Assembly: GCA_017527065.1 (NCBI GenBank) | Contig: JAFXQO010000047.1 | Location: forward strand, 28,467-92,466 | Length of the DNA stretch: 64,000 bases | Reading direction: 5' to 3' | Source of the DNA: Clostridia bacterium | GTDB lineage: Bacteria > Bacillota > Clostridia > Christensenellales > Aristaeellaceae | Shown here: piece by piece, positions 4,525-31,994 of the stretch | How the letters are laid out: each line of letters begins with the position of its first letter | How positions within the stretch are numbered: the first letter of the stretch is position 1 | Program-made: the position numbers and the translations under genes | The notes under the pieces: generated by a model | What the model was told of the DNA's origin: nothing | Databases searched by the model: none | The model's input: the letters and a program-made list of their open reading frames with translations, nothing else

Positions 4525-7500
4525 ATGCGACCGACGACGTGGGAATATCAATCCTGGGACAGGCGCGAAGCGCCGCTGGACGACAGGGCCATGCAGCAGC
4601 ACGTGCGCGCGCTGGCCGTTTCGATGAACGCGCCGCGCCGCGCGCCGCTATGCGTCTGTCCGGAGGAGGCGTTCCGCACCGCCCTGGAGACGGCCCGCGC
4701 CTTGGCCGGGGAAACCGAAACGCTGGCCGCGCCGCTCCAATGGCTCTGCGAAAATGGACGCCCGGCCGAGGCGCTCTTCGCCGCCCTCGCCCCGCGCCGC
4801 AGGGAAGCGCGGCGGTTTTCCCTGCCCGCGCTGCCGGACGGCAAGCCCCGCGTCCAGGCGGCGCTGGAGGAAACCGTGAAGCACGGCGACGCCCCGCTGA
4901 CCGAAAAGCGCCTGACCGACTGCCTTTGCGCCTTCGACGAAGTGCGCGCGCTGGAAATGGCGGAGCTGTGGGCCGTGCCGGCGGCGCTGGCCTGCGCGCT
5001 GAAATGGGCCTTCGCGGCGGCGGCCAGGCGCGCGGCGGCGGCCCAGCGCGAGCGCATCGCGGCGGAAAAATGGGCGGCCTCCGGCGCGGTGATCGGGCCC
5101 GCGCGCCGCGGCGGGGCGTTTCTCGAGCATGCGCTTCAAAAGCTGCACGAGCGGGACGACGCCACCCGGCGGGCCGAACTCGAAAAATGGCTCGCCGACC
5201 ACGACTGCCCCGCCGAACAGGTCATCGCGACGGAGCATGAAAGACAGGCGCTCGAACGGCTGCAGCTGGATCACATGCTGGCGGCGCTGCGCCTGCTGAA
5301 CGGCCTCGACTGGAGCGCCTGCTTCGCGCGGGTCAGCCGCGTGGAGCGGACCCTCATGAAGGACCCGGCGGGCACCTATCCCCGCATGGAAAACGACTCG
5401 CGGGACCTGGCGCGCGGGCGCATCGCCGATCTGGCCGCCCGCTGCGACGTGGGCGAGGCCACCTTCGCCGCGGCCGCGCTGAGGGCCGCGGAAAGGAGCG
5501 AGGGCATCCGGCGCGAGGTATGCTGGTGGCTCATGACAGACGAGGGGACCCGGGCGCTGCTGGATGGCATGGGCGTGAAGGCGCGGGGCGTTCCCAAAAT
5601 ACACCCCGATCCCGGCGCGCGGGCTTACCGCGCGGGCGCGCTGCTGCTCGCCGCCGCCGTCATGGGACCCCTCGCCGCACGCCACGGCTGGTTGGCGCTG
5701 GCCGCGCTGCCGGCGGCGCTGTGCGCGGCGGAACAGGCGATGAACCGCGCGCTGGCCCGCGTGAAGCCCCGCCGCCTGCTCAAATTGGAACTCGATCCCC
5801 TGCCGGACGACTGCCGCACGGCGGTGGTCATGCCGGCGCTGCTGTCCTCGCCGGAGCAGGCGGCGGAGTTGGCCTTCCAGCTCGAAACGCTGGGCTGCCT
5901 CGAAAAGGACCCGGGCTTTACCTTCATCCTGCTGGGCGACCTGCCGGACGCGGATCAGGCCGTCATGCCGGAGGATGAAGCGATCCTTGCCGCCGCCCGG
6001 GAAGCAATCGACGGCGCGAACCGGCGCGCGGACCGGCCGGACAAATACATCCTGCTCACGCGAAAGCGCGAATACGCCCGGTGCATGCGCCGCTGCATCG
6101 CCCCCGAGCGCAAGCGCGGCGCGCTGAACGCCCTGGCCGCGCTTCTCACGGGCGGCGGAAATCCGTTCGACCAACCTGAAGCCGAAGCGCTGGCCGGGCG
6201 GGGCTTTGCCTTTTTCATTACGCTGGACGCCGGAACGAAGATGCTCCCCGGTACGTCGGCGCGGCTGGTTGGCGCGCTTGCGCATCCGCTGAACCGGGCG
6301 CGCTACGCCATGCTCGCGCCCCGCATGACGCTGCCCGCCGAGGCGGTGACGAACCGCTTCGTGCGCCTGCTGGGCGGCGAGGGCGGGCTGGACGCCTACC
6401 CGACGGCGGTGTCGGATATATGGCAGGACCTGGCGGGCGAAGGCAATTTCGGCGGCAAGGGCATCGTGGATATAGCGGCGTTCCGCCGCGCCATGGAGGA
6501 GGCGCGCCTGCCGGAGGGACAGATCCTGAGCCACGACCTGCTGGAAGGCCTGATCGCGAAGGCGGGCTTTATCGACGACGTGACGCTCTTCGAGGGGCAT
6601 CCGCGCCGCGCTCAGGCGTGGTTTGCCCGGCTGCACCGTTGGACGCGGGGCGACTGGCAGCTGGTCGGCTTCCTGTTCCGCGAAGGTTTCAGCGGGCTCG
6701 ACCGCTGGAAAATAGGCGGCAACCTCTTCCGTTCCCTCGCGCCGGCGAGCGCTTTTCTGAGCCTGGCGCTGGGCTTTTTCACGGGCCGCGGCCTGCTGAT
6801 CGCCGCAGGGCTCATCAGCGCCGCGCTGCCCCTGTTGCTGCGCCCGACGCTGAAAAAGGAAGATTGGGAACGGCTGCTCCTGCGCTTCTCGCTGCTGCCC
6901 CATGAGGCGTGGGTGACGGCCGACGCCGCCCTTCGCGCGCTGTTCCGCCTCCTCGTGACGAAGCGGCGCCTGCTGGAGTGGGTCACGGCGGACGACGCAG
7001 AGCGGCGCGGCGGCGCGCTCTCCCCCTGGCCGAGCCGCATGGGCGCGCTGATCCTGCTCGCCTCGATCCCCTTCCAGCCCACGCTCGTTCTCCCGGCGGC
7101 GCTGATCGCGGCCCTGTGGGCCAGCGCGCCGGCCCGCGTGAGAGAACTCGAAGCGCCGGAGGAAAAGGAGTCCTTCGACGAGGCGCAGCGCGCGCTGATG
7201 ACCGGCCTGGCGAAGAGGACATGGCGGTTCTTCGCCGAGAACACGCTGCAAAGCGGCCTCACGCCGGACAACGTGCAGCTCGACCCGCCCCGGGGCGCGG
7301 CCCTGCGCACCTCCCCCACCAACATCGGCCTGTACATGACCGGCTGCGCGGCCGCCTGCCTCCTGGGCCTGATCGACGCGGCGGAACGCGACGAGCGCCT
7401 GCGCCGCACGGCGGAAACGCTGGAACGGCTCGAAAAGTGGCGCGGACACCTGTACAACTGGTACGACATCGCCGCGGAGAGGCCGCTTTCGCCGCGCTAT

Positions 7501-21036: not shown

Positions 21037-22227
21037 TTACTTCACAACTTCCCCGAAGATCGCGCCCAGCCGCTTCACGCCTTCCACGATACGCTCGTCG
21101 CTCATGGTGGAGTAGTTCAGGCGCAGCGCGCTGCAGGGCTTGTCCATATCCACCATGAAGGTGTTGCCCGGCACGTAGACCACCTTGTTCGCCGCGCAGG
21201 TCGGGGCCAGCGCCAGCGTGTCGATGCCGTGGCCCAGATCGCACCACACGAACAGGCCGCCCTTCGGCGTGGTGTGGGTGACGCCCTTGGGGAAATAGGT
21301 CTCGATGGCGTCCAGCATGGTGGCGCACTTGTGGGCGTAGTTGGCGCGCATCTTCACGATCAGCGCGTCGATGTCGTAGCGTTTCATGAATTCATAGGCC
21401 AGCAGCTGGGGCAGCATGGCGGTGTGCACGTCGGAAACCTGCTTCGCCACGACGACCTTCTGCACGATGGCCTTGTCCGCGCACATGAAGCCCACCCGCA
21501 GGCCGGGGGCCAGGATCTTCGAGAAGGAGCCGCAGTAGATCACCAGGCCCTCCGTGTCCATGGATTTGATCGTGGGCAGCTTCGTGCCGTCAAAGGTCAG
21601 CTCGCCGTAGGGATTGTCCTCGATGATCACCACGCCGTGCTTCTTCGCCACCTCGTACAGCGACCTGCGCTTTTCGACGCTCATCGTCGCGCCCATGGGG
21701 TTCTGGAAGGTGGGAATGGTGTAGATCAGGCGCACGTTGTCATTCCGCTCGATGGCCTTTTCCAGCGCCTCGATGTTCATGCCGTCCTCGTCCATGGGCA
21801 CGCCCACCAGATGCGCGCCGTAGGAGCGGAAGGCGTTCGTCGCGCCGATGAAGCTGGGCTCCTCCACGATGACCGTGTCGCCCTCGTTCACCAGCGCCTT
21901 GGTGGACAGCTCGATGCCCTGCTGGCCGCCGGAGACGATGATCACGTCGTCGCCCTCGCGGTCGATACGCTCCTTTTCCTTCAGGCGCGCCTTCACGGCC
22001 TCGCGCAGGGGATTGTAGCCCTCCGTCACGCCGTACTGCAGCGACAGCACCGGCTGGTTTTTCAGGAGATCCTGCGCGATTTCGGCCAGCTGCTCGTTCG
22101 GGAACAGCTCCGGCGCGGGATTGCCGCCCGCCAGGGAAATGACCGAGGGATCCGCGGCGAATTTGAAGATTTCGCGGATGGCGGAGCCGCGAATCGCGCT
22201 CATCCGGTTGGAAATTTGAAACTCCAT
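21037..22227 (-). CDS. PLP-dependent aminotransferase, class I/II (aromatic/2-aminoadipate type)
   Basis: A 396-residue fold-type I aminotransferase close to the LysN/ARO8 group. The PLP lysine is K237 in YCGSFSKILAPGLRVGF, the aspartate for the pyridine nitrogen is in IIEDNPYGEL (D204), and the phosphate-binding start is SGGQQGI. The N terminus (ISLAGGNPAPELFP) is typical of the group, which transaminates aromatic amino acids, 2-aminoadipate or branched-chain amino acids. It follows iorB by 22 bases in the T-box operon, which suggests it turns arylpyruvates into aromatic amino acids (inference). Confidence 0.9.
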   Translation of the reverse strand: MEFQISNRMSAIRGSAIREIFKFAADPSVISLAGGNPAPELFPNEQLAEIAQDLLKNQPVLSLQYGVTEGYNPLREAVKARLKEKERIDREGDDVIIVSGGQQGIELSTKALVNEGDTVIVEEPSFIGATNAFRSYGAHLVGVPMDEDGMNIEALEKAIERNDNVRLIYTIPTFQNPMGATMSVEKRRSLYEVAKKHGVVIIEDNPYGELTFDGTKLPTIKSMDTEGLVIYCGSFSKILAPGLRVGFMCADKAIVQKVVVAKQVSDVHTAMLPQLLAYEFMKRYDIDALIVKMRANYAHKCATMLDAIETYFPKGVTHTTPKGGLFVWCDLGHGIDTLALAPTCAANKVVYVPGNTFMVDMDKPCSALRLNYSTMSDERIVEGVKRLGAIFGEVVK

Positions 22228-22249
22228 TGTTCTCCTGCCTCCCGCAATA

Positions 22250-22819
22250 TCAGTGGTTGTAGCCCAGGTCGAAGGCCTTCAGGTTCACGTCCAGGAACTT
22301 CGGCGGCACGGTGGCCTTGAGCGTTTCGATCCAGCGCTCGTAGGGAATCTGGGTGTTCTTCGCCATCAGGCCGATCAGCACCACGTTCACCGCGCGGCTG
22401 TTGCCGGCCTGCTTCGTCAGGGCCAGCGCGTCGATGGCGGTCACATTGGCCTTTTCGCCCAGCTTCTTCGCGATGTCAGCGGGATACGCCGCCGCGCCGG
22501 TGATGACCGGCATCGGATCGATGGACTGCCCGTTCACGATGATTCGTCCGCCTTTTTTCAGATAGGGCAGCGCGCGGTAGGCCTCCAGCAGCTCGAAGGC
22601 CAGTATGATGTCCGCTTCCCCCTGGCCGATGATGGGCGAATACACTTTATCGCCGAATTTCACATACGTCACGACGCTGCCGCCGCGCTGGCTCATGCCG
22701 TGCACTTCGGATACCTTCACGTCGTAGCCCTCGCCGATGACGGCGTTGCCCAGGATGCGGCTGGCCAAAAGCGTTCCCTGGCCGCCCACGCCCACGATCA
22801 TGATATTGGTCGTCATCAC
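22250..22819 (-). CDS. iorB: indolepyruvate:ferredoxin oxidoreductase beta subunit
   Basis: A 189-residue gamma-domain subunit of a 2-oxoacid:ferredoxin oxidoreductase. The start NIMIVGVGGQGTLLASRILG and the VHGMSQRGGSV segment are diagnostic. With IorA it interconverts arylpyruvates (indole-, phenyl-, 4-hydroxyphenylpyruvate) with aryl-acetyl-CoA, CO2 and reduced ferredoxin. Its ATG overlaps the iorA stop by four bases, so the two subunits are translationally coupled. Confidence 0.93.
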   Translation of the reverse strand: MMTTNIMIVGVGGQGTLLASRILGNAVIGEGYDVKVSEVHGMSQRGGSVVTYVKFGDKVYSPIIGQGEADIILAFELLEAYRALPYLKKGGRIIVNGQSIDPMPVITGAAAYPADIAKKLGEKANVTAIDALALTKQAGNSRAVNVVLIGLMAKNTQIPYERWIETLKATVPPKFLDVNLKAFDLGYNH

Positions 22820-24555
22820 GCCTCCGCCTCCTTCTCAATCGCGCCGAAGGGACACACGTTCACGCACAGGCCGCAGCCGTTGCACTGGTTCGGGTCGATT
22901 TTCACCGCGCCATCCTTCAGCGAGATGGCCGGGCAGCCCAGCTTCATGCACATCTTGCACTTTTTGCAGCGGTCGGTGACGGCGGCGCGGCCGGTGTACT
23001 TCACGTATTTCAGCAGCGCACAGGGCCGCTGGGCGATGATCACGGAGGGCTCGTCCCGCTCCACTTCCTCCCGCACGACCTGCTCGAATTTCTTCACGTC
23101 GAAGGGATCGGCCACCACCACGTGCTCCACGCCCACCGCCCGGGCCAGCAGCTCAAGGTCGACCTGCTTCGTGGCCTCGCCGCGAATGGTCTTGCCGGTG
23201 GTGGGATTGTCCTGATGTCCGGTCATGCCGGTGATGGAGTTGTCCAGTATGATGACCGTGTTCGCGCCCTTGTTGTACACGATGTCGATCAGGCCGGTGA
23301 TGCCTGAATGGATGAAGGTGGAATCGCCGATGACGGACACCAGCTTCCTGTTGAACTCCGGGCCCCGCGCCTTGGCCATGCCCAGCGCCGCGCTCACCGA
23401 AGCGCCCATGCAGATGGTGCTGTCCACCGCCGCGAGGGGCTGCGCCGCGCCCAGCGTGTAGCAGCCGATGTCGCCGGACACCGTGAGGCCCAGCTTTTTG
23501 AGCACGTAGAAGGTGCCCCTGTGCGGGCAGCCGGGACACATGACCGGCGGGCGCACGGGGATGGGCTCCTCCGCCTGCAGCGATGCCTCAGGCTCCTTGC
23601 CCAGCACGGCCTTCGCGATCATCGCGGGGGTGTATTCGCCCAGCAGCGTGAACGCGCTCTTGCCGGTTACTTCGATGCCCAGCGCCCTGCAGTGCTCCTC
23701 GATGAAGGGATCGAGCTCCTCGATCACGAACACCTTGTCGCACTTCGCGGCGAAGGCCTTGATCTTTTCCTCCGGCATGGGATAGGCCATGCCGAGCTTG
23801 AAGTAGTTGACGCTGTCGCCCAGCGCCTCACGGGCATACATATAGGAAATGCCCGAGGTGATGACGCCGATTTTGCTGCCGTTGTCCTCGACGCGGTTGA
23901 GTCCGGTCGTCTCGGCGAAGGCGGCCAGCGCCTTCGCGCGCTCCTCGACGGCGACGTGCCGCTTGATGGCCATGGCGGGCATCATCACGTTTTTGGCGAT
24001 GTTCTTTTCGTAGGGTTTGAGCTCCGCCTCCTGCCGCGGCCCGGTCTCAACCAGGCTCTGGGAATGGGACACGCGCGTGGAGAGGCGGATGACGAAGGGC
24101 ACGTCGAAGCGCTCGCTCAGCTCGAACGCCGCCTTTGTGAAGGCGAGGCACTCGGCGGAATCGGCGGGCTCCAGCATGGCGATCTTGGCGGCCTTGGCGT
24201 AGTGCCGGGAGTCCTGCTCGTTCTGGGAGGAATGCATGCCGGGGTCGTCCGCCACGCAGATGACCATGCCGCCGTTCACGCCGATGTAGCTCACCGTGAA
24301 CACCGGGTCGGCCATGACGTTGAAACCTACTTGCTTGCAGCAGGTCATTGAGCGCGCGCCCGCCATGCTGGCCCCGATGGCGACCTCGCAGGCCACCTTT
24401 TCGTTGGGCGCCCACTCCACGTAGACCTCCGGATACTGAACCATGCTCTCGGTGATCTCCGTGCTGGGCGTGCCGGGATAGGAGGCGACAACGCGGACGC
24501 CGGCCTCATAGGCGCCCTGCGCCACGGCGGCGTTGCCGATCAGAAGTTTAGCCAT
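22816..24555 (-). CDS. iorA: indolepyruvate:ferredoxin oxidoreductase alpha subunit
   Basis: A 579-residue thiamine-diphosphate enzyme. The N-terminal pyrimidine-binding domain begins MAKLLIGNAAVAQGAYEAG and carries SYPGTPSTEI. The diphosphate-binding domain has CPGCPHRG, GDIGCYTLG and GDSTFIHSGI, then LDNSITGMTGHQ. The C terminus (530-579) is a ferredoxin domain with CKKCKMCMKLGCP and CNGCGLCVNVCP for two 4Fe-4S clusters. ATG 24555 has an AGGGG ribosome site at a good distance; the GTG at 24567 lies inside it. It is the second gene of the T-box operon. Confidence 0.94.
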   Translation of the reverse strand: MAKLLIGNAAVAQGAYEAGVRVVASYPGTPSTEITESMVQYPEVYVEWAPNEKVACEVAIGASMAGARSMTCCKQVGFNVMADPVFTVSYIGVNGGMVICVADDPGMHSSQNEQDSRHYAKAAKIAMLEPADSAECLAFTKAAFELSERFDVPFVIRLSTRVSHSQSLVETGPRQEAELKPYEKNIAKNVMMPAMAIKRHVAVEERAKALAAFAETTGLNRVEDNGSKIGVITSGISYMYAREALGDSVNYFKLGMAYPMPEEKIKAFAAKCDKVFVIEELDPFIEEHCRALGIEVTGKSAFTLLGEYTPAMIAKAVLGKEPEASLQAEEPIPVRPPVMCPGCPHRGTFYVLKKLGLTVSGDIGCYTLGAAQPLAAVDSTICMGASVSAALGMAKARGPEFNRKLVSVIGDSTFIHSGITGLIDIVYNKGANTVIILDNSITGMTGHQDNPTTGKTIRGEATKQVDLELLARAVGVEHVVVADPFDVKKFEQVVREEVERDEPSVIIAQRPCALLKYVKYTGRAAVTDRCKKCKMCMKLGCPAISLKDGAVKIDPNQCNGCGLCVNVCPFGAIEKEAEA

Positions 24556-24570
24556 ATTTCTTAACACCCC

Positions 24571-26205
24571 TTACTTTTCGATCTGCTGGGCCACCAGGCT
24601 CTCGCCGCAGTAAATGCTGCGCAGCCTGGGCTTTTCGATCTTGCCGGTGGGATTGCGCGGCACCTCGGCGAAGATGATCCTGCGCGGCCGCTTGTAGCGC
24701 GGCAGGCCCGTGCAGAATTCGTTCAGCTGCTCCTCGGTGAGGGAGAACCCGGGCTTTACCTCCACGATGGCCGCGGCGATCTCGCCCAGCCTCGGATGCG
24801 GCAGGCCGATCACGGCCACGTCCTTCACCGCCTCGTGCCGGCGGATGAAGTCTTCGATCTGCACAGGATACAGGTTTTCGCCGCCGGTGATGATGACGTC
24901 CTTCTTGCGGTCCACCAGGAAGATGAAGCCGTCCTCGTCCTCCATGGCCATGTCGCCGGTGAAGAGCCAATCGCCCTTGAGCACCTCTTCAGTGGCCTTT
25001 TCATCCTTATAATAACACTTCATGACCCCGGGGCCCTTCACGCACAGCTCGCCCACGTCGCCCCGGGCGACCGGCTCGCCGTTTTCGTCCACGATCTTCA
25101 CCGACCAGCCGAAGCCGGCCTTGCCGATGGCGCCCACCTTGTCGATGTTGCCCAGGCCCAGATGCACGCAGCCCGGCCCGATGGACTCGCTCAGGCCGTA
25201 GTTGGTGTCGTAGTCGTGATGCGGGAACACGGACAGCCAGCGCCGGATGAGGGACGGCGGCACGGGCTGCGCGCCGATGTGCATCAGCCGCCACTGATCG
25301 AGGGTGTAATCGGAGAGCTTCACGTCGCCGCGCTCGATGGCGTCCAGTATATCCTGCGCCCAGGGAACCAGCAGCCACACGATGGTGCATTTTTCATCCG
25401 AGGCGGCCTTGAGGATCCACTCGGGCTTCGTGCCCTTCAAAAGCACCGCTTTGCCGCCCACCAGGAAGCTGCCGAACCAGTGCATCTTCGCGCCGGTGTG
25501 GTACAGCGGCGGGATGCACAGGAACACGTCCTCGTGAGTCTGGCCATGGTGGTTCTGCTCGGTCAGGGCCGCGTGCATCAGCGCGCGGTGGGCGTGCAGT
25601 ATGGCCTTGGGGAAGCCCGTGGTGCCGGAGGAGTAGTAGATGGCCCCGTCGTCGTCGTCGGTCAGCGGAATGGCCGGCGAGCGCGAGGAGCAGAAGCCGA
25701 TCATGCGGTCGTAGCTGTCCGCGAAGGAGGGGCAGTCCTCGCCCACATAGAACATGTGGCCGATCTTGGGGATCTTGTCGCAGATCTCCTCCATGCGGCC
25801 CACGAACTCCGGCCCGAAGGCCAGCATCGTGCAGTCCGCCTTGTCAAGGCAGTATTTGATCTCCTCGGCGGTGTAGCGGTAATTGAGCGGCACGGCGATC
25901 GCCCCGGCCTTGAGCACGCCGAAATAGATCGGCAGCCATTCGATGGAATTCATCAGCAGGATGGCCACCTTGTCGCCCTTCCTGCAGCCGCGGGTGAGCA
26001 GCAGGTTGGCGAAGCGATTGGCCTTTTTGTCGAATTCGCTCCAGGTGAGCTCGCGGCGGAACTCCTCGCCGGGCTGCGGCTGCATGAGCGAATACTCGCG
26101 CCAGGTGATGCGGCTCTCCGGCTGGAACTCCGGGTTGATCTCCACCAGCGCCGTCTCGTCTCCATAGAGCTGCGCGTTCTTCTCCAGAATCTCCGTAATT
26201 GGCAT
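24571..26205 (-). CDS. AMP-forming acyl/aryl-CoA ligase
   Basis: A 544-residue ANL-superfamily enzyme. The ATP P-loop is YYSSGTTGFPKAI, the second core motif is TNYGLSESIG, the hinge region is GDWLFTGDMA, then DRKKDVIITGGENLYP, and the C-terminal catalytic lysine is in NPTGKIEK. It activates a carboxylic acid to acyl-AMP and then acyl-CoA. Its place 15 bases before iorA, under a Tyr-type T-box, suggests that arylacetates such as 4-hydroxyphenylacetate are the substrates (inference); medium-chain fatty acids are the main alternative. ATG 26205 follows an AGGAGG/AAAGGGG region; codons further upstream lie in the T-box. Confidence 0.85.
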   Translation of the reverse strand: MPITEILEKNAQLYGDETALVEINPEFQPESRITWREYSLMQPQPGEEFRRELTWSEFDKKANRFANLLLTRGCRKGDKVAILLMNSIEWLPIYFGVLKAGAIAVPLNYRYTAEEIKYCLDKADCTMLAFGPEFVGRMEEICDKIPKIGHMFYVGEDCPSFADSYDRMIGFCSSRSPAIPLTDDDDGAIYYSSGTTGFPKAILHAHRALMHAALTEQNHHGQTHEDVFLCIPPLYHTGAKMHWFGSFLVGGKAVLLKGTKPEWILKAASDEKCTIVWLLVPWAQDILDAIERGDVKLSDYTLDQWRLMHIGAQPVPPSLIRRWLSVFPHHDYDTNYGLSESIGPGCVHLGLGNIDKVGAIGKAGFGWSVKIVDENGEPVARGDVGELCVKGPGVMKCYYKDEKATEEVLKGDWLFTGDMAMEDEDGFIFLVDRKKDVIITGGENLYPVQIEDFIRRHEAVKDVAVIGLPHPRLGEIAAAIVEVKPGFSLTEEQLNEFCTGLPRYKRPRRIIFAEVPRNPTGKIEKPRLRSIYCGESLVAQQIEK

Positions 26206-26245
26206 GTTGAAAACCCCTTTCCTCCTGTTATATTGCAGAAGGCGA

Positions 26246-26281
26246 TAAAAAACGCCCTCTGCAGCCTGGTGCAGAGGACGA
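26246..26281 (-). terminator. T-box terminator hairpin
   Basis: On the minus strand GTCCTCTGCA pairs with TGCAGAGGGC across a six-base loop and runs into TTTTTT (about 26251-26246). It competes with the antiterminator containing the T-box sequence just upstream. Confidence 0.92.
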
Positions 26282-26522
26282 TAAATACTTACCGCGGTAC
26301 CACCTCTATTGCCGGCATAGCCGACCACTCCGGTACGGCGGCGCGAAGCCGCATATACCTTCCCGCTGTGACGGGCGAACCCGGCGCGTCCTACTGGAAA
26401 AATCGTTCAGCGCGCGACTCACAGGATGTATTCCCCGAAGAACCCACGCCGCCTCTCACCGCCCGGCGGCTCTCTTGGGAAGGCCCTCTCCGGCTACTTG
26501 TTCCCGGTCATTGTCTTTATTC
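26246..26522 (-). promoter_or_regulatory. T-box leader, apparent tyrosine specifier
   Basis: On the minus strand the leader has the standard T-box landmarks: AAGAGAG (26476-26470), GGTGAGAGGCGG (the AG-bulge region, 26460-26449), the specifier segment GGGAATACATCCTG, and the conserved T-box AGAGGTGGTACCGCGG (about 26306-26291), followed by the terminator. After the conserved GAA the specifier reads UAC (26430-26428), a tyrosine codon. The UGGU bulge would pair with an ACCA tRNA end, consistent with the A discriminator of tRNA-Tyr. Uncharged tRNA-Tyr should turn the operon on. Confidence 0.88.
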
Positions 26523-26524
26523 AT

Positions 26525-26553
26525 ATTATATTACGCGCGTTCCGATTCGTCAA
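26525..26553 (-). promoter_or_regulatory. promoter of the T-box operon
   Basis: On the minus strand TTGACG (26553-26548) and TATAAT (26530-26525) are 17 bases apart, immediately before stem I of the T-box. Confidence 0.88.
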
Positions 26554-26744: not shown

Positions 26745-28694
26745 ATGAAGAAACTCGTTTCCCTGATCATCGCCCTGGCGTTGGTTCTGCCCATGGTCAT
26801 GGCGCCGTCCTTCGCGGAAGGCAAGACCTTGACCGAGGCGCCCATGCTGGCCGCCAAGGTCGCTGCCGGCGAGCTGCCCCCCCTTGAGGAGCGCCTGCCC
26901 GAAGAGACCAAGCTGCCCGACGAGATCCTCGCTAAGTACCTCGACTATGAGTGCGGCCAGTACGGCGGCACCATGCGCTTCATCACCTCCATCGTCAACT
27001 GGGACGCTGACGTGTTCGTCGGCAACAACGAAGCCCTGCTGACCATGGAGTCCGCCAGCAGCGACATCATCACCCCGAACATCGTTGCGGGCTTTGAGGC
27101 GAACGAGGACAACACCGAGTTTACCTTCACCCTCCGCAAGGGCCTGAAGTGGTCCGACGGCGAGCCCGTCACCATCGAGGACTTTGAGTTCGCTATCAAC
27201 GATTTCATCTTCAACCAGGAGCTGAACCCCGTTGTCGCCACCTACATGCGCGACGGCGGCGTGCAGGCCGGCCAGCCCTTCACCTATGAGAGGCTCGACG
27301 ACTGGTCCTTCAAGCTCAAGTTCAACGAGCCTTACGGCGGCTTCGCGGTGCATCTGTCCATCGCCGGCTGGAAGGGCTACACGGACTTCCTGAAGCCCGC
27401 GCACTTCCTGAAGAAGTTCCACAAGGCCTACGCCGAAGAGATCCATGGCTCCGAGGATGCTTACTATGAGTTCATCCAGCCCTATGCCAAGGTCATGGGC
27501 TATGAGGATGCCAAGGACGAGAACGTCTGGGTGAACGTGTTCAACCAGGTCGACATGACCAACTGGGAGCTCACCGACCCCAACGACGCGCTGACCAGCG
27601 TGTACTTCGCGGATGCCGGCCAGACCGAGGACTTCCCGGTGCTGTACGCCTGGCACATGGTTTCTTCCGCCGGTGGCCTGACCACCTGGGAGCGCAACCC
27701 CTATTATCACAAGGTTGACGCCAAGGGCCAGCAGCTGCCCTATGTGGACTACCTGACCTCCAAGCTCGTTGAGAACATGGAAATGGTCCAGATGTCCTAC
27801 ATCTCCGGCGAGGCTGACTTCGGCCGTGAGTCCGCCACCATCGACAACATCTCCATGTACAAGGAGAACGCCGAGAAGGCCGGCATCACCGCCTACGTCA
27901 CCACCATGCACAACAACCCCACCGACATCTCCCTGAACGCCAACTACAAGGACGAGGCCTGGCAGGAGGTCATCACGGACATCCGCTTCCGTCAGGCGCT
28001 GGCCCATGCCATCGACGCTGAGGAAATCATCGACGTCGTATACCATGGCTTCGGCGAGGTCAACCCCTACTATCCCTGCGACTACGACATCGAGCTGGCC
28101 AACTCCCTGCTCGACGAGATGGGCATGAAGGACACCGACGGCGACGGCTATCGCGAGACGCCCTCCGGCAAGCCCCTGAGCTGGTCCATCTACAACTACA
28201 ACGAGGCCAACGACATCATCCCCGTGGCTGAGCTGTGCGTTGAATACTGGAAGGAAATCGGCCTGAAGGCTGACATCAAGACCGTCGAGTCCACCCTGCT
28301 GTCCACCATGCAGGAAGGCAACGAGATCCCCTGCCGCGTCGCTTGGGTGCACTCCACGCAGCTGTGGCACTACCTCGACTGGTTCTGCGGCAGCTGGTGC
28401 CCGCTGTGGAACCTGTGGTTCGACCGTGACGGCGCGCAGGGTGAAGAGCCCCCGGCCGATGTCAAGGACTTCCTGGCCAAGATCGACTCTCTGATGACCG
28501 TGTCTCCTGAGGACGCCGTGAACGAAGTGCTGCCCGAGCTGGTCGGCTGGATGGGTGAGAACCTGTACCTCATTGAGCCGCTGATCAACGTCGACCAGTG
28601 CGTCGTCATCAACTCCAAGATCGGCAACGTGCCCACCGGCGGCATCGGCATCTCCTGGAACTTCTCCATCGAGCAGTTCTTCTACAAGGACTAA
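26745..28694 (+). CDS. ABC transporter substrate-binding protein, family 5
   Basis: A 649-residue secreted binding protein of the peptide/nickel/oligosaccharide family. The signal peptide ends at SFAEGK and has no lipobox cysteine. The SBP_bac_5 core shows FTLRKGLKWSDGEPVTIEDF and RQALAHAIDAEEI. Many aromatic residues, for example in LWHYLDWFCGSWCPLWNLW, are more typical of members that bind sugars than of peptide binders (inference). ATG 26745 follows AAAGGAG. A GC-rich hairpin separates it from the permease genes and may keep its message level higher. Operon context with a rhamnosidase suggests plant glycosides as ligands. Confidence 0.85.
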   Translation: MKKLVSLIIALALVLPMVMAPSFAEGKTLTEAPMLAAKVAAGELPPLEERLPEETKLPDEILAKYLDYECGQYGGTMRFITSIVNWDADVFVGNNEALLTMESASSDIITPNIVAGFEANEDNTEFTFTLRKGLKWSDGEPVTIEDFEFAINDFIFNQELNPVVATYMRDGGVQAGQPFTYERLDDWSFKLKFNEPYGGFAVHLSIAGWKGYTDFLKPAHFLKKFHKAYAEEIHGSEDAYYEFIQPYAKVMGYEDAKDENVWVNVFNQVDMTNWELTDPNDALTSVYFADAGQTEDFPVLYAWHMVSSAGGLTTWERNPYYHKVDAKGQQLPYVDYLTSKLVENMEMVQMSYISGEADFGRESATIDNISMYKENAEKAGITAYVTTMHNNPTDISLNANYKDEAWQEVITDIRFRQALAHAIDAEEIIDVVYHGFGEVNPYYPCDYDIELANSLLDEMGMKDTDGDGYRETPSGKPLSWSIYNYNEANDIIPVAELCVEYWKEIGLKADIKTVESTLLSTMQEGNEIPCRVAWVHSTQLWHYLDWFCGSWCPLWNLWFDRDGAQGEEPPADVKDFLAKIDSLMTVSPEDAVNEVLPELVGWMGENLYLIEPLINVDQCVVINSKIGNVPTGGIGISWNFSIEQFFYKD

Positions 28695-28752
28695 GCCTGT
28701 TTGAAAGCGAGCGAGGACGCAACTCCTCCCGCAGACTGATCGGTTCGCTCTT

Positions 28753-28792
28753 GCGGCGGCGCCACCCATGCGGTCGCGCCGCCGCTGTTTTC
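28753..28792 (+). terminator. intra-operon hairpin after the binding-protein gene
   Basis: GCGGCGGCGC pairs perfectly with GCGCCGCCGC (about 28753-28762 and 28776-28785) and is followed by TGTTTTC. The imperfect T tract suggests partial termination or a 3' stabiliser that lets binding protein exceed permease. Confidence 0.65.
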
Positions 28793-28832
28793 AATCCACA
28801 GGAGAAAAACAGGAAGGAAGGGATGAGGCGAT

Positions 28833-29834
28833 ATGCTCGGGAATTACATCCTCAAGCGGTGCCTTCAGCTGATCCCGCTGCTGATTGCCATCAGCATCGT
28901 GATTTTCGTCATCATACAGCTCCCGCCGGGAGATTATCTGACCACTTATATCATTCAGCAGGAGGCGTCGGGCCTGGAGGTCAACCAGTCCAATATCGTG
29001 CTGCTGACCAAGCAGTACGGCCTGGACAAGCCCGTCTATATGCAGTATTTCTATTGGATCCGCAACATCATCACGAAGGGTGATTTCGGGCGATCCTTCC
29101 AATGGTCGGTTCCGGTCTCGCAGCTGCTTTCCGAGCGCCTGCCCGCCACCATCGGCATTTCGCTGCTCTCCCTGATCGTCACCTGGGGCATCGCCATCCC
29201 CATCGGCATTTATTCCGCGACGCACCAGTACTCCGTGTTTGACTATGTGTTCCAGTTCATCGGCTTTATCGGCCTGGCCGTGCCGGGCTTCCTCCTGGCG
29301 ATCATATCCGTCTATTTCCTCTTTACGCTCACAGGCGTCTCGCTGACGGGCCTGCATTCCGCCGCGTTCCTGAACGCGCCGTGGAGCTGGGCGAAGGTCG
29401 TCGATATGCTGCCGCGCCTGGGGCTGGTGGTGTTCATCATCGGCCTCTCCCAGACGGCGGGCATGATCCGTCAGATGCGCGCCATGCTGCTGGACGAGCT
29501 GCAGAAGCAGTACGTCATCACCGCCCGCGCCAAGGGATTGAAAGAGAAGAAGCTGCTGTGGAAATATCCGATCCGCATGGCGGTCAATCCGATGATCTCC
29601 ACCATCGGCTGGACGCTGCCCGGCCTGATCTCCGGTGAGATGATTGTCTCCATCATCCTCTCGATGCCGACGATGGGACCGATCGTCAGGCGCGCGATGA
29701 TCACGCAGGATATGTACCTTGCCGGTTCGTTCCTGCTCATCGTCAGCTGCCTGACCGTCATCGGCACGCTGATTTCGGATATTCTGCTGGCGATTGTCGA
29801 CCCGCGTATCAGATTTGGGGGCGTGGCCGAATGA
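28833..29834 (+). CDS. ABC transporter permease, DppB/OppB type
   Basis: A 333-residue inner-membrane permease. It starts with the family's typical YILKRCLQLIPLLIAISIVIF segment at the first helix, and later has the conserved MIRQMRAMLLDEL, then YVITARAKGLKEKK coupling loop that contacts the ATPases. Six membrane segments are expected. ATG 28833 follows GGAAGGGATGAGG. It overlaps the next permease gene by four bases. Confidence 0.92.
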   Translation: MLGNYILKRCLQLIPLLIAISIVIFVIIQLPPGDYLTTYIIQQEASGLEVNQSNIVLLTKQYGLDKPVYMQYFYWIRNIITKGDFGRSFQWSVPVSQLLSERLPATIGISLLSLIVTWGIAIPIGIYSATHQYSVFDYVFQFIGFIGLAVPGFLLAIISVYFLFTLTGVSLTGLHSAAFLNAPWSWAKVVDMLPRLGLVVFIIGLSQTAGMIRQMRAMLLDELQKQYVITARAKGLKEKKLLWKYPIRMAVNPMISTIGWTLPGLISGEMIVSIILSMPTMGPIVRRAMITQDMYLAGSFLLIVSCLTVIGTLISDILLAIVDPRIRFGGVAE

Positions 29835-30943
29835 GTTTGTTTAAGAAAAAGCAAAAAGCCGGCACTTATGAGGTTGCCAGCCAATGGAAGCTCATGTGGT
29901 GGAAGTTCAAGAAGCACAGGCTGGCTTCCATCGCGCTGCCGATTATCTTCATCATGTATCTGCTCACCATGTGCTGTGAGTTCTTTTCCCCTTCCCTCCC
30001 GCTGGAGCGTTACAAGAAGTACGTGGAGTGCCCGCCCACGGCGGTTCATCTGTGGGATCATGAAGGCACGTTCCGCGGGCCCTTCGTGTATGCGAAGGAA
30101 ATCGGGCGCGACCCTGAAACCTACCGAAAGACTTTCGTCGACAGCGAGACCGAGATCGTGGAGCTGGGCTTCTTCGTGCACGGTTCCAAGTACAAGTTCT
30201 GGGGCCTCTGGGAGACGGACATCCACTTCTTTGGCGCCAAGGAACCCGGCGCCGCGTACTTCCTGATGGGCACCGACGACCTGGGGCGCGACCTGTTCAC
30301 CCGCATACTGTACGGCGGCCGCATATCGCTCTCCTTCTGCCTGGTGTCGATCTTCTTCACGTTCCTGATCGGCCTGACGCTGGGCGGATTGTCAGGCTAC
30401 CTGGGCGGCATATTCGACACGATCGTACAGCGCGCGATCGACCTGATCATGTCCATGCCCTCCATCCCGCTGTGGATGGCGCTGGCCGCGGCCATGCCCA
30501 AGGAGATCTCGCAGCTGAAGCAGTACCTGCTGATGTCCATCATCATGTCGCTCATCGGCTGGACAGGCCTTGCCCGCGTGGTGCGCGGCAAGATCCTGTC
30601 GCTGCGTGAGGAGGACTTCGTGACGGCCGCCCGGCTTTCCGGCGCGGGCCACGGGCGCATCATCGCCAAGCACATGCTGCCCTCCTTCCTGAGCTACATC
30701 ATCGTGTCGATCACCGGCTCGATCCCCGCGACGATCCTGGGCGAGACGGCGCTGTCCTTCCTCGGCCTCGGCCTGCAGGCGCCCACCATCTCCTGGGGCA
30801 CCCTGCTGCAGGACTGCCAGACGGTCGAAACCGTCGCCGCCAAGCCCTGGCTGATGTTCCCCGCCGTCTTCATCGTCATTTCCGTTCTGATGTTCAATTT
30901 CGCGGGCGATGGTCTGCGCGACGCGGCCGACCCGTACAAGTAA
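29831..30943 (+). CDS. ABC transporter permease, DppC/OppC type
   Basis: A 370-residue partner permease. After the first membrane helix (about residues 30-52) comes an extracytoplasmic insert of roughly 100 residues, ending at YFLMGTDDLGRDLFTRILYG, which is the conserved family block. The coupling loop reads LREEDFVTAARLSGAGHGRI, and the C terminus ends GDGLRDAADPYK, the classic OppC ending. Members with long inserts are common among oligosaccharide-type systems. It starts with an ATGA overlap with the upstream permease. Confidence 0.92.
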   Translation: MSLFKKKQKAGTYEVASQWKLMWWKFKKHRLASIALPIIFIMYLLTMCCEFFSPSLPLERYKKYVECPPTAVHLWDHEGTFRGPFVYAKEIGRDPETYRKTFVDSETEIVELGFFVHGSKYKFWGLWETDIHFFGAKEPGAAYFLMGTDDLGRDLFTRILYGGRISLSFCLVSIFFTFLIGLTLGGLSGYLGGIFDTIVQRAIDLIMSMPSIPLWMALAAAMPKEISQLKQYLLMSIIMSLIGWTGLARVVRGKILSLREEDFVTAARLSGAGHGRIIAKHMLPSFLSYIIVSITGSIPATILGETALSFLGLGLQAPTISWGTLLQDCQTVETVAAKPWLMFPAVFIVISVLMFNFAGDGLRDAADPYK

Positions 30944-30956
30944 GGAGGGGAGTTCT

Positions 30957-31990
30957 TTGGAGAAGCAGAGAAAAGACGACATCATCCTTGAACTGAAAGA
31001 TGTCAAAGTGCATTTCAAGCTGGACGAAGGACTCCTGAAGGCGGTCGACGGCGTTTCCTTTGCCATTCATAAGGGCAGAACGCTGGGCATCGTCGGCGAA
31101 TCCGGATGCGGCAAATCCGTCACGTCCAACGCCATCTTCAAGATCCTGCCCAAATACGGCCTGATCGGCGGCGATATCCTCCTCTATGAGAAGGATCACA
31201 AGCGGCTCGAAACGCCCATCAACATCGCCAAGCTGAACCCGACGGGGCCGGAGATCCGCTCGATCCGCGGCGGCAATATCTCCATGATCTTCCAGGAGCC
31301 CATGAAGGCCTTCTCGCCGCTGCACACCATCGGCAATCAGATCATCGAAGCCATCCAGCTGCACATCGAGCCGGATCCCGCCAAAGCCCGCGCCATCGCC
31401 ATCGAGGCGCTGCGCTCGGTGGACATCTCCAACCCCGAGCAGCGCATCGACGAATATCCCCACCAGCTCTCCGGCGGCATGCGCCAGCGCGCGATGATCG
31501 CCATGGCGCTGTCCTGCAAGCCGTCCATCCTGATCGCGGACGAGCCCACGACCGCCCTGGACGTGACCGTGCAGGCGCAGGTGCTGGATCTGATCAACAA
31601 CCTGAAGCGGGAAAACGACACGTCCGTCATCTTCATCACCCACGACCTGGGCGTCATCGCCGAGATGAGCGACGACGTGGTGGTCATGTACCTGGGCAAG
31701 GTGGTGGAATACTGCGACGTGGATACGCTGTTCTACCACCCGATGCATCCCTACACGCGCGCGCTGCTCAAATCCATCCCCACGGAGGACAAGATCCACA
31801 AGGGACGCTTTGAGTCCATCCGGGGCACCGTCCCCTACCCCATCAACCTGCCGGTGGAGTGCGGCTTCTGCTCCCGCTGCGACGAAGCGGAAAAGGGCGT
31901 CTGCGACAAGGGCGAGCCGCCGATGGTCGAGGTTGAGCCCGGACACTTTGTGAGATGCTTTCATGCAGGGAAAGGAAAGGAGGCACAGGC

Positions 31991-31994
<4 letters not shown>
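30957..31994 (+). CDS. ABC transporter ATP-binding protein, DppD/OppD type
   Basis: A 345-residue ATPase. TTG 30957 is taken as the start because AAGGAGGGG lies at 30942-30950 and no in-frame ATG fits; a codon upstream would overlap the permease. Walker A is GESGCGKSVTS, the signature is LSGGMRQRAMI, Walker B is ILIADEPTTALD and the switch is ITHDLGV. The oligopeptide-type C-terminal extension has LPVECGFCSRCDEAEKGVC, the cysteine-rich segment that often holds an iron-sulfur cluster in this family. It overlaps the next ATPase gene by four bases. Confidence 0.9.

Follow-up and report, generated by a model that had tools for sequence, protein, structure and literature searches.

The subject of this analysis is a four-gene operon on the minus strand (21037..26553) of a 64,000-nucleotide stretch of contig JAFXQO010000047.1 from a Clostridia bacterium of the family Aristaeellaceae; the whole of this stretch is referred to here as the window. 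In the direction of transcription, the operon consists of a promoter, a T-box leader, a terminator and the genes for an acyl-CoA ligase, the two subunits of an indolepyruvate:ferredoxin oxidoreductase (iorA and iorB) and an aminotransferase. It is probably a tyrosine synthesis operon that is induced by tyrosine starvation and starts from 4-hydroxyphenylacetate, the synthetic direction and the identity of the amino acid being well supported. When tyrosine is scarce, uncharged tRNA-Tyr would stabilise the antiterminator of the leader and the operon would be transcribed. 4-Hydroxyphenylacetate, supplied by neighbouring bacteria, would be taken up by a likely importer, a sodium:solute symporter encoded elsewhere in the genome behind a UAC T-box of its own; it would then be converted to 4-hydroxyphenylacetyl-CoA by the ligase with ATP, to 4-hydroxyphenylpyruvate by IorAB working in the reductive direction with CO2 and reduced ferredoxin, and to tyrosine by the aminotransferase. 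In the lineage of the window, this route would replace a lost prephenate dehydrogenase, and may also yield phenylalanine from phenylacetate. The RNA elements of this scheme were identified in the sequence, whereas the switching and all enzymatic steps are deduced from protein family and gene context.

An initial annotation of this DNA had described a complete T-box leader directly upstream of a tight four-gene operon, and every element was recovered at the position claimed, on the minus strand (Table 1). The covariance-model scan that it had proposed gave a full-length match to RF00230 above the gathering threshold (model positions 1–219 of 219 aligned; E 4.4e-24) with UAC as the specifier, and this is the highest-scoring of the 19 T-boxes detected in the genome. 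An antiterminator (AGGUGGUACCGCGG) and a competing terminator are both found in the leader, as predicted for a switch. The genes follow each other closely, with gaps of 15 nt between ligase and iorA and 22 nt between iorB and the aminotransferase gene, and an overlap of 4 nt between iorA and iorB.

The T-boxes of this genome differ by one base in their specifier register, and the register of the window leader was therefore checked in three ways. The tyrS leader of the same genome reads GAA-UAC-C, in an identical register. At its acceptor-end contact the window leader reads UGGU and so calls for A73 in the tRNA (UGGU:ACCA); the tRNA-Tyr of this genome (anticodon GUA) has A73 and its tRNA-Thr has U73. 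A threonine register (ACA) was considered and is ruled out by the U73 of tRNA-Thr, together with the UGGA of the genome's own thrS leader. Judged from these pairings, the window T-box matches tRNA-Tyr at both the specifier (UAC:GUA) and the acceptor end, and antitermination by uncharged tRNA-Tyr is predicted at this leader. The tyrosine type assigned in the initial annotation is thus upheld by two tRNA contacts calibrated on the genome's own tyrS leader, and also by the leaders of the operon family in other genomes.

These leaders were read at 26 loci, upstream of a ligase operon or of the symporter: in the window, at 19 of 80 loci from a search for relatives, and at six of 30 loci sampled across the order, which were drawn from 31 ligase carriers with the window's genome excluded. 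The Rfam model was run on each of the 30 sampled loci and on 39 of the 80, and the other 41 were searched by sequence motif only; at L007, L049 and L058 (ligase) and L050 (symporter), the start lies too near the contig end for a T-box to be visible. The Rfam threshold is exceeded by 24 of the 26 leaders, and the remaining two (L044 and L176), which fall below it, were accepted by motif and by eye. Specifiers were read by eye from the alignments before being tallied by a script that allowed only UAC or UUC; 25 of the 26 are UAC and one, at L014, is UUC (Phe), whereas UGGU is present in all. Conservation of the leader in related genomes, a comparison that the initial annotation had suggested, is seen upstream of ligase and symporter operons alike. 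On a quick tree of 111 ligase sequences, the 26 rows with a T-box require 16 changes of state, five of which are forced by well-supported branches, against a mean of 23.5 changes when the T-box states are shuffled (1 of 500 shuffles is as low as 16). The leader is, thus, somewhat clustered yet has been repeatedly gained or lost, with a tyrosine specifier in all cases but one. No T-box motif was observed upstream in a clade of 12 rows of this tree, 10 of which are labelled Lentisphaerota. Upstream of the ligase of L004, at about 6400–6500, there is an apparent worn remnant of a T-box (GGTATCGCG and a terminator) in which no stem I was seen. Where no T-box could be seen, operons share a palindrome-like sequence similar to CTTTAACGCGTTAAAA, read by eye at the promoter (ahead of the symporter at L018, L021, L027, L050, L056 and L079, and of the ligase at L020), which is perhaps the operator of a repressor.

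IorA passes TIGR03336 (720.1 bits; cut-off 650.9) and has Fer4 domains, IorB passes NF005325 (282.8 bits; cut-off 230), the ligase matches the Pfam families AMP-binding PF00501 (250.9 bits) and PF13193 (52 bits), and the aminotransferase matches the Protein Data Bank (PDB) sequences 1x0m, 3aov, 1wst and 2egy (E 1.1e-92 to 1.6e-84). Encoded together at one locus, they make up the predicted gene set of the reductive aryl-acid route. Gene content alone cannot separate degradation from synthesis, because IorAB runs both ways, and the operon could in principle be oxidative: tyrosine would be transaminated, IorAB would oxidise 4-hydroxyphenylpyruvate to the CoA ester while reducing ferredoxin, and cleavage of this ester would yield energy. 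The accessible parts of several papers offer precedents: IorAB is reversible and oxidative in amino-acid fermenters, as in the aminotransferase–iorAB–butyrate kinase operon of C. difficile (PMC7438776), C. scatologenes oxidises tyrosine through a related oxidoreductase (PMC13285125), and gut acetogens oxidise aromatic 2-oxoacids (PMC13290082). Such a function is, however, very unlikely here. A T-box activates genes when its amino acid is scarce, and on a degradation operon it would switch on in the absence of the substrate. The ligase is AMP-forming, which favours CoA-ester synthesis, an argument made for Bacteroides in the available text of PMC13285125, and a scan of the four operon genes found no kinase, phosphotransacylase or ADP-forming ligase among them. 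The specifier is, moreover, common to tyrS and the symporter. Synthesis is further backed by the absence of prephenate dehydrogenase and prephenate dehydratase (PDT), by the symporter with the same specifier, by PaaK-type ligases in related operons and by a tyrosine/phenylalanine peptide at L016, all of which are described below. The proposal of the initial annotation, that the operon makes tyrosine from an arylacetate through ligase, IorAB and aminotransferase, is thus supported by T-box logic and genome context.

UAC is the specifier of three of the 19 T-boxes of the window genome: those of tyrS, of the window operon and of the sodium:solute symporter (contig C17). Relatives of this symporter lie beside the ligase at 14 of the 80 loci (two of them divergent) and at six of the 30 sampled loci (one divergent), and those adjoining the ligase are 61–74% identical to the C17 protein, except for one at 41%. 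The T-box is followed by ligase and then symporter at L073, and by symporter, ligase and iorA at L032, L054 and L063. Across the 80 loci, iorA lies downstream of the ligase in 44, a window-like aminotransferase gene is present in six, and a PaaK-type ligase gene follows iorB in 18; two of these PaaK-type proteins scored 529 and 555 bits, below the PaaK cut-off of 646. A separate PaaK-like gene is also found in the window genome, on contig C29 with an ACT gene (547.2 bits; cut-off 646.3). As judged from these neighbourhoods, the operon family brings an importer and ligases together with IorAB and, in some cases, an aminotransferase, which is the parts list of a route from arylacetate to amino acid. 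It is scarcely probable that the symporter instead imports tyrosine itself, with the ligase acting on an unrelated fatty acid and the T-box serving mainly for uptake. PutP and PanF are the families nearest the symporter, which scores under the cut-off of each, and the models matching the ligase are of the fatty-acid type, with none of the 25 NCBIfam matches listed reaching its cut-off; the ligase is not PaaK (TIGR02155, 18.3 bits; cut-off 646.3). The window T-box nevertheless drives ligase, iorAB and aminotransferase genes with no transporter gene among them, PaaK-type genes are found in related operons, and at L080 a UAC T-box is followed by the ligase and then by a monocarboxylate-type carrier of the major facilitator superfamily, nearest the L-lactate family but below its cut-off.

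The prephenate branch was searched for in 40 ligase-bearing genomes with prephenate dehydrogenase (TyrA, PF02153), PDT (PF00800) and chorismate synthase (AroC), controls being positive in 14 of 14 known genomes for each. In the drafts of the window genome (G000) and of its two closest relatives, G001 and G002, TyrA and PDT were not found and AroC was. The chorismate synthase gene is split over two frames in the genome of L002, and TyrA, PDT and AroC were all not found in that of L003. In G010, a relative with both enzymes, the shikimate operon contains genes for AspAT, a chorismate mutase–prephenate dehydratase (CM-PDT), AroC, AroE/K, AroQ, AroA, TyrA and DAHP synthase. In the equivalent neighbourhood of G000, the chorismate mutase part of CM-PDT stands alone, beside AroC (G000:C72:76781-77014), and is followed by AroC/AroK and AroA; in G001, AroA leads directly into DAHP synthase and the position of TyrA is empty. 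The chances are about even that, in the lineage of the window, a rumen lineage, the prephenate branch is gone, that tyrosine (and perhaps phenylalanine) comes solely from the reductive carboxylation of aryl acids released by bacteria that ferment amino acids, under one tRNA-Tyr regulon that includes the importer, and that a relative has rebuilt this control with a tyrosine-rich leader peptide.

Several observations weigh against the proposed function of the operon. The window genome is a draft (89.3% complete), and retains a chorismate mutase although no use for its prephenate is apparent. Absence of TyrA shows no tie to the T-box (seven of 17 T-box genomes and five of 23 others; p 0.30), absence of PDT a weak one (seven of 17 and two of 23; p 0.023), and absence of both lies between them (six of 17 and two of 23; p 0.053), all three values being uncorrected for kinship. 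Both enzymes are absent from G000–G003, G007 and G016 among the T-box genomes, and from G025 (the genome of L016) and G027 among the others; a 19-bit TyrA match in G006 was scored as absent, and the 23 genomes counted as lacking a T-box include those of L007, L050 and loci checked only by motif. TyrA is kept in 10 of the 17 T-box genomes, in which the operon would be an addition rather than a replacement, and only some lineages seem to rely on the operon alone. A general link between the ligase and loss of TyrA was considered and rejected: 24 of 31 carriers have an above-cut-off TyrA (that of G229 being a short match of 28 bits), as do 133 of the 198 genomes sampled across the order. Among proteins of solved structure, those nearest to the ligase in sequence include fatty-acyl-CoA synthetases and the synthetases of feruloyl-CoA and malonyl-CoA; the ligase is established only as a member of the broad AMP-forming acyl-CoA ligase family, and 4-hydroxyphenylacetate is its presumed substrate. 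At 36 of the 80 loci, no same-strand iorA was found downstream of the ligase (some of these are contig ends and three have divergent iorAB), which indicates that the ligase also works in other settings. Finally, minimum-energy folding of the window leader is no better than that of shuffled sequences (z -1.64; 9 of 100 as good); as plain folding is unremarkable, it is the covariance model and the tRNA contacts that identify the T-box.

One locus suggests a different form of tyrosine control. L016 has the ligase, iorA, iorB and aminotransferase genes, in a genome with no detected TyrA or PDT, and no T-box was found there. Between promoter and ligase, after a Shine–Dalgarno-like GGGAG, lies a short open reading frame (ORF) encoding MKLSAKVFGYYYFSGVYAPLLCMNF, which contains YYYF; the terminator after it is highly stable (fold z −8.1). 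In computed folds with a ribosome held at the tyrosine codons, the RNA up to the 5' arm of the terminator forms an antiterminator (duplex −13.3 kcal/mol), a fold not adopted by the free leader; with the whole terminator present, the terminator is more stable in every case, so that only a kinetic switch would work. A YYY ORF occurs in 0.4% of randomised leaders, which corresponds to about 0.3 expected in 80 loci, and one was seen. These features are suggestive of a leader peptide that replaces the T-box as the tyrosine control. Leader peptides as a general alternative to the T-box were rejected: short upstream ORFs with runs of at least three Y/F/W residues were found at 14 of 80 loci, with about 10 expected (0.129 per locus). 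As this count is near expectation, such runs carry no general meaning, and the YYY of L016 alone was retained, for its position and its terminator.

The L016 peptide also bears on whether the operon might mainly turn phenylacetate into phenylalanine, or supply every aromatic amino acid, and use tRNA-Tyr merely to gauge aromatic supply. Phenylalanine adjoins the tyrosine codons of this peptide, PDT was, like TyrA, not found in the window genome, and the specifier of L014 is that of phenylalanine, in a genome (G007) with neither TyrA nor PDT detected; rumen bacteria have, in addition, long been known to make phenylalanine from phenylacetate, according to citations from 1965 on in the accessible part of PMC7356843. 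A predominantly phenylalanine-forming operon is nonetheless unlikely, as all leaders but that of L014 carry a tyrosine specifier and the genome's own phenylalanine T-box serves pheS rather than the window operon.

Tryptophan is more likely to be served by T-box genes of its own, encoding a TrpB-like protein and a lactate dehydrogenase-like protein with a TrpX-type transporter. A T-box of the tryptophan type (UGG, UGGC), at G000:C84:13317-13566 (L094, L115), stands before a gene of the L-lactate/malate dehydrogenase family, which is followed by genes for a binding protein that resembles TrpX but scores under its cut-off, and then for a permease and an ATPase; these genes perhaps salvage indolelactate to tryptophan. 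A second UGG T-box, at G000:C24:388-667 (L099), is below threshold at 37 bits and lies before the start of a TrpB-like gene truncated by the contig end, and tryptophan may possibly be made from scavenged indole in this genome, in which TrpA was not found. The lack of TrpA was rejected as support for the aryl-acid route. There is no above-cut-off TrpA in 38 of the 40 ligase genomes (G009 has a sub-cut-off match), and TrpA is above the cut-off in 29 of 198 genomes of the order, of which three are among the 31 ligase carriers and 26 among the 167 other genomes (p 0.58); it is rare order-wide, ligase or not, so its absence is uninformative. A second IorA is encoded on contig C41 of the window genome (L117; 417 bits, 40% identity to the window IorA). 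This contig, of 4.8 kb, also has a CarboxypepD_reg gene, which we take to be Bacteroidota-like, and may be a contaminant, although its G+C content of 65% is close to that of the window.

Table 1. Elements of the tyrosine T-box operon in the window, in order of transcription.
Feature	Position	Strand	Basis
Sigma-70 type promoter	26525..26553	-	-35 TTGACG 26548-26553, spacer 17 nt, -10 TATAAT 26525-26530; direct reading
T-box leader RF00230	26271..26520	-	cmscan 112.6 bits, gathering 93
Specifier codon UAC (Tyr), context GAA-UAC-A	26428..26430	-	Reading and cmscan; register set by tyrS T-box
Leader intrinsic terminator	26247..26277	-	Stem CCUCUGC/GCAGAGG and U run; direct reading
AMP-forming acyl-CoA ligase, 544 aa, predicted arylacetate-CoA ligase	24571..26205	-	PF00501, PF13193
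IorA, indolepyruvate:ferredoxin oxidoreductase alpha subunit, C-terminal 4Fe-4S domains	22816..24555	-	TIGR03336; Fer4
IorB, beta subunit	22250..22819	-	NF005325
Pyridoxal phosphate (PLP) aminotransferase, KAT II / LysN / PH0207 group, predicted aromatic	21037..22227	-	PDB sequence matches

Two other features of the window were recorded. An operon for an oligopeptide-type ABC transporter, named by reading only, begins just past the T-box promoter and runs divergently from it (26745-31994, plus strand), and a lysine riboswitch lies at 1745-1922 on the plus strand (113.5 bits).

The chemistry proposed here is known in archaea and has recently been suggested for Bacteroides. A tyrosine T-box that recurs in distant relatives, and that was apparently swapped once for a tyrosine leader peptide, gives a direction to this chemistry from sequence. 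For the salvage of aryl acids by gut and rumen bacteria, it also yields a set of candidate genes, together with a regulon that can be tested. Genomes without tyrA that are scored as tyrosine auxotrophs may live on the 4-hydroxyphenylacetate of their neighbours, in competition with p-cresol producers. If tyrosine is indeed made solely by the aryl-acid route in the lineage of the window, this would supply genes and a regulatory readout for an obligate cross-feeding on aryl acids that has been hinted at in rumen microbiology since the 1960s. No description of T-box control of a ligase–IorAB type operon was found in searches of the open-licence literature, which does not establish priority.

The T-box itself is of a familiar kind. 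In the T-box survey of PMC2494555, as far as its text was accessible, specifiers agreed with function wherever this was verified, and the tyrosine T-boxes of Firmicutes (tyrS; the tyrosine synthesis operon and phenylalanine hydroxylase of the B. cereus group) share the RNA mechanism and specifier logic of the window leader. Those T-boxes serve a shikimate-derived route, phenylalanine hydroxylation, tyrS or NhaC-type carriers, and the main text of the survey, in its accessible part, is silent on indolepyruvate and phenylacetate. The iorAB–paaK operon of Geobacter has in common with the window operon the iorAB genes, an arylacetate-CoA ligase gene (as predicted for the window) and a listed upstream element; it differs in having a PaaK-type ligase and in being placed under tryptophan, a T-box being named only for leuA in the available text (PMC2700814). 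The AMP-forming ligase beside the indolepyruvate oxidoreductase (IOR) of Bacteroides is an arylacetate-CoA ligase; the authors see in this an indication of biosynthesis (PMC13285125, available text). The pairing of IOR with an AMP-forming ligase and the suggested aromatic amino acid biosynthesis are shared with the window operon, as a likeness of arrangement; the window operon has a T-box, of which the available text of that paper makes no mention. The closest parallel in chemistry is the aryl-acid route to aromatic amino acids of M. maripaludis, with IorAB encoded by MMP0713/0714 (cited in the accessible part of PMC4162585). Arylacetyl-CoA, reductive carboxylation by IorAB and transamination would be shared with this methanogen route, whereas the window system is bacterial, has the ligase and aminotransferase genes in a single operon, and carries a tyrosine T-box ahead of them.

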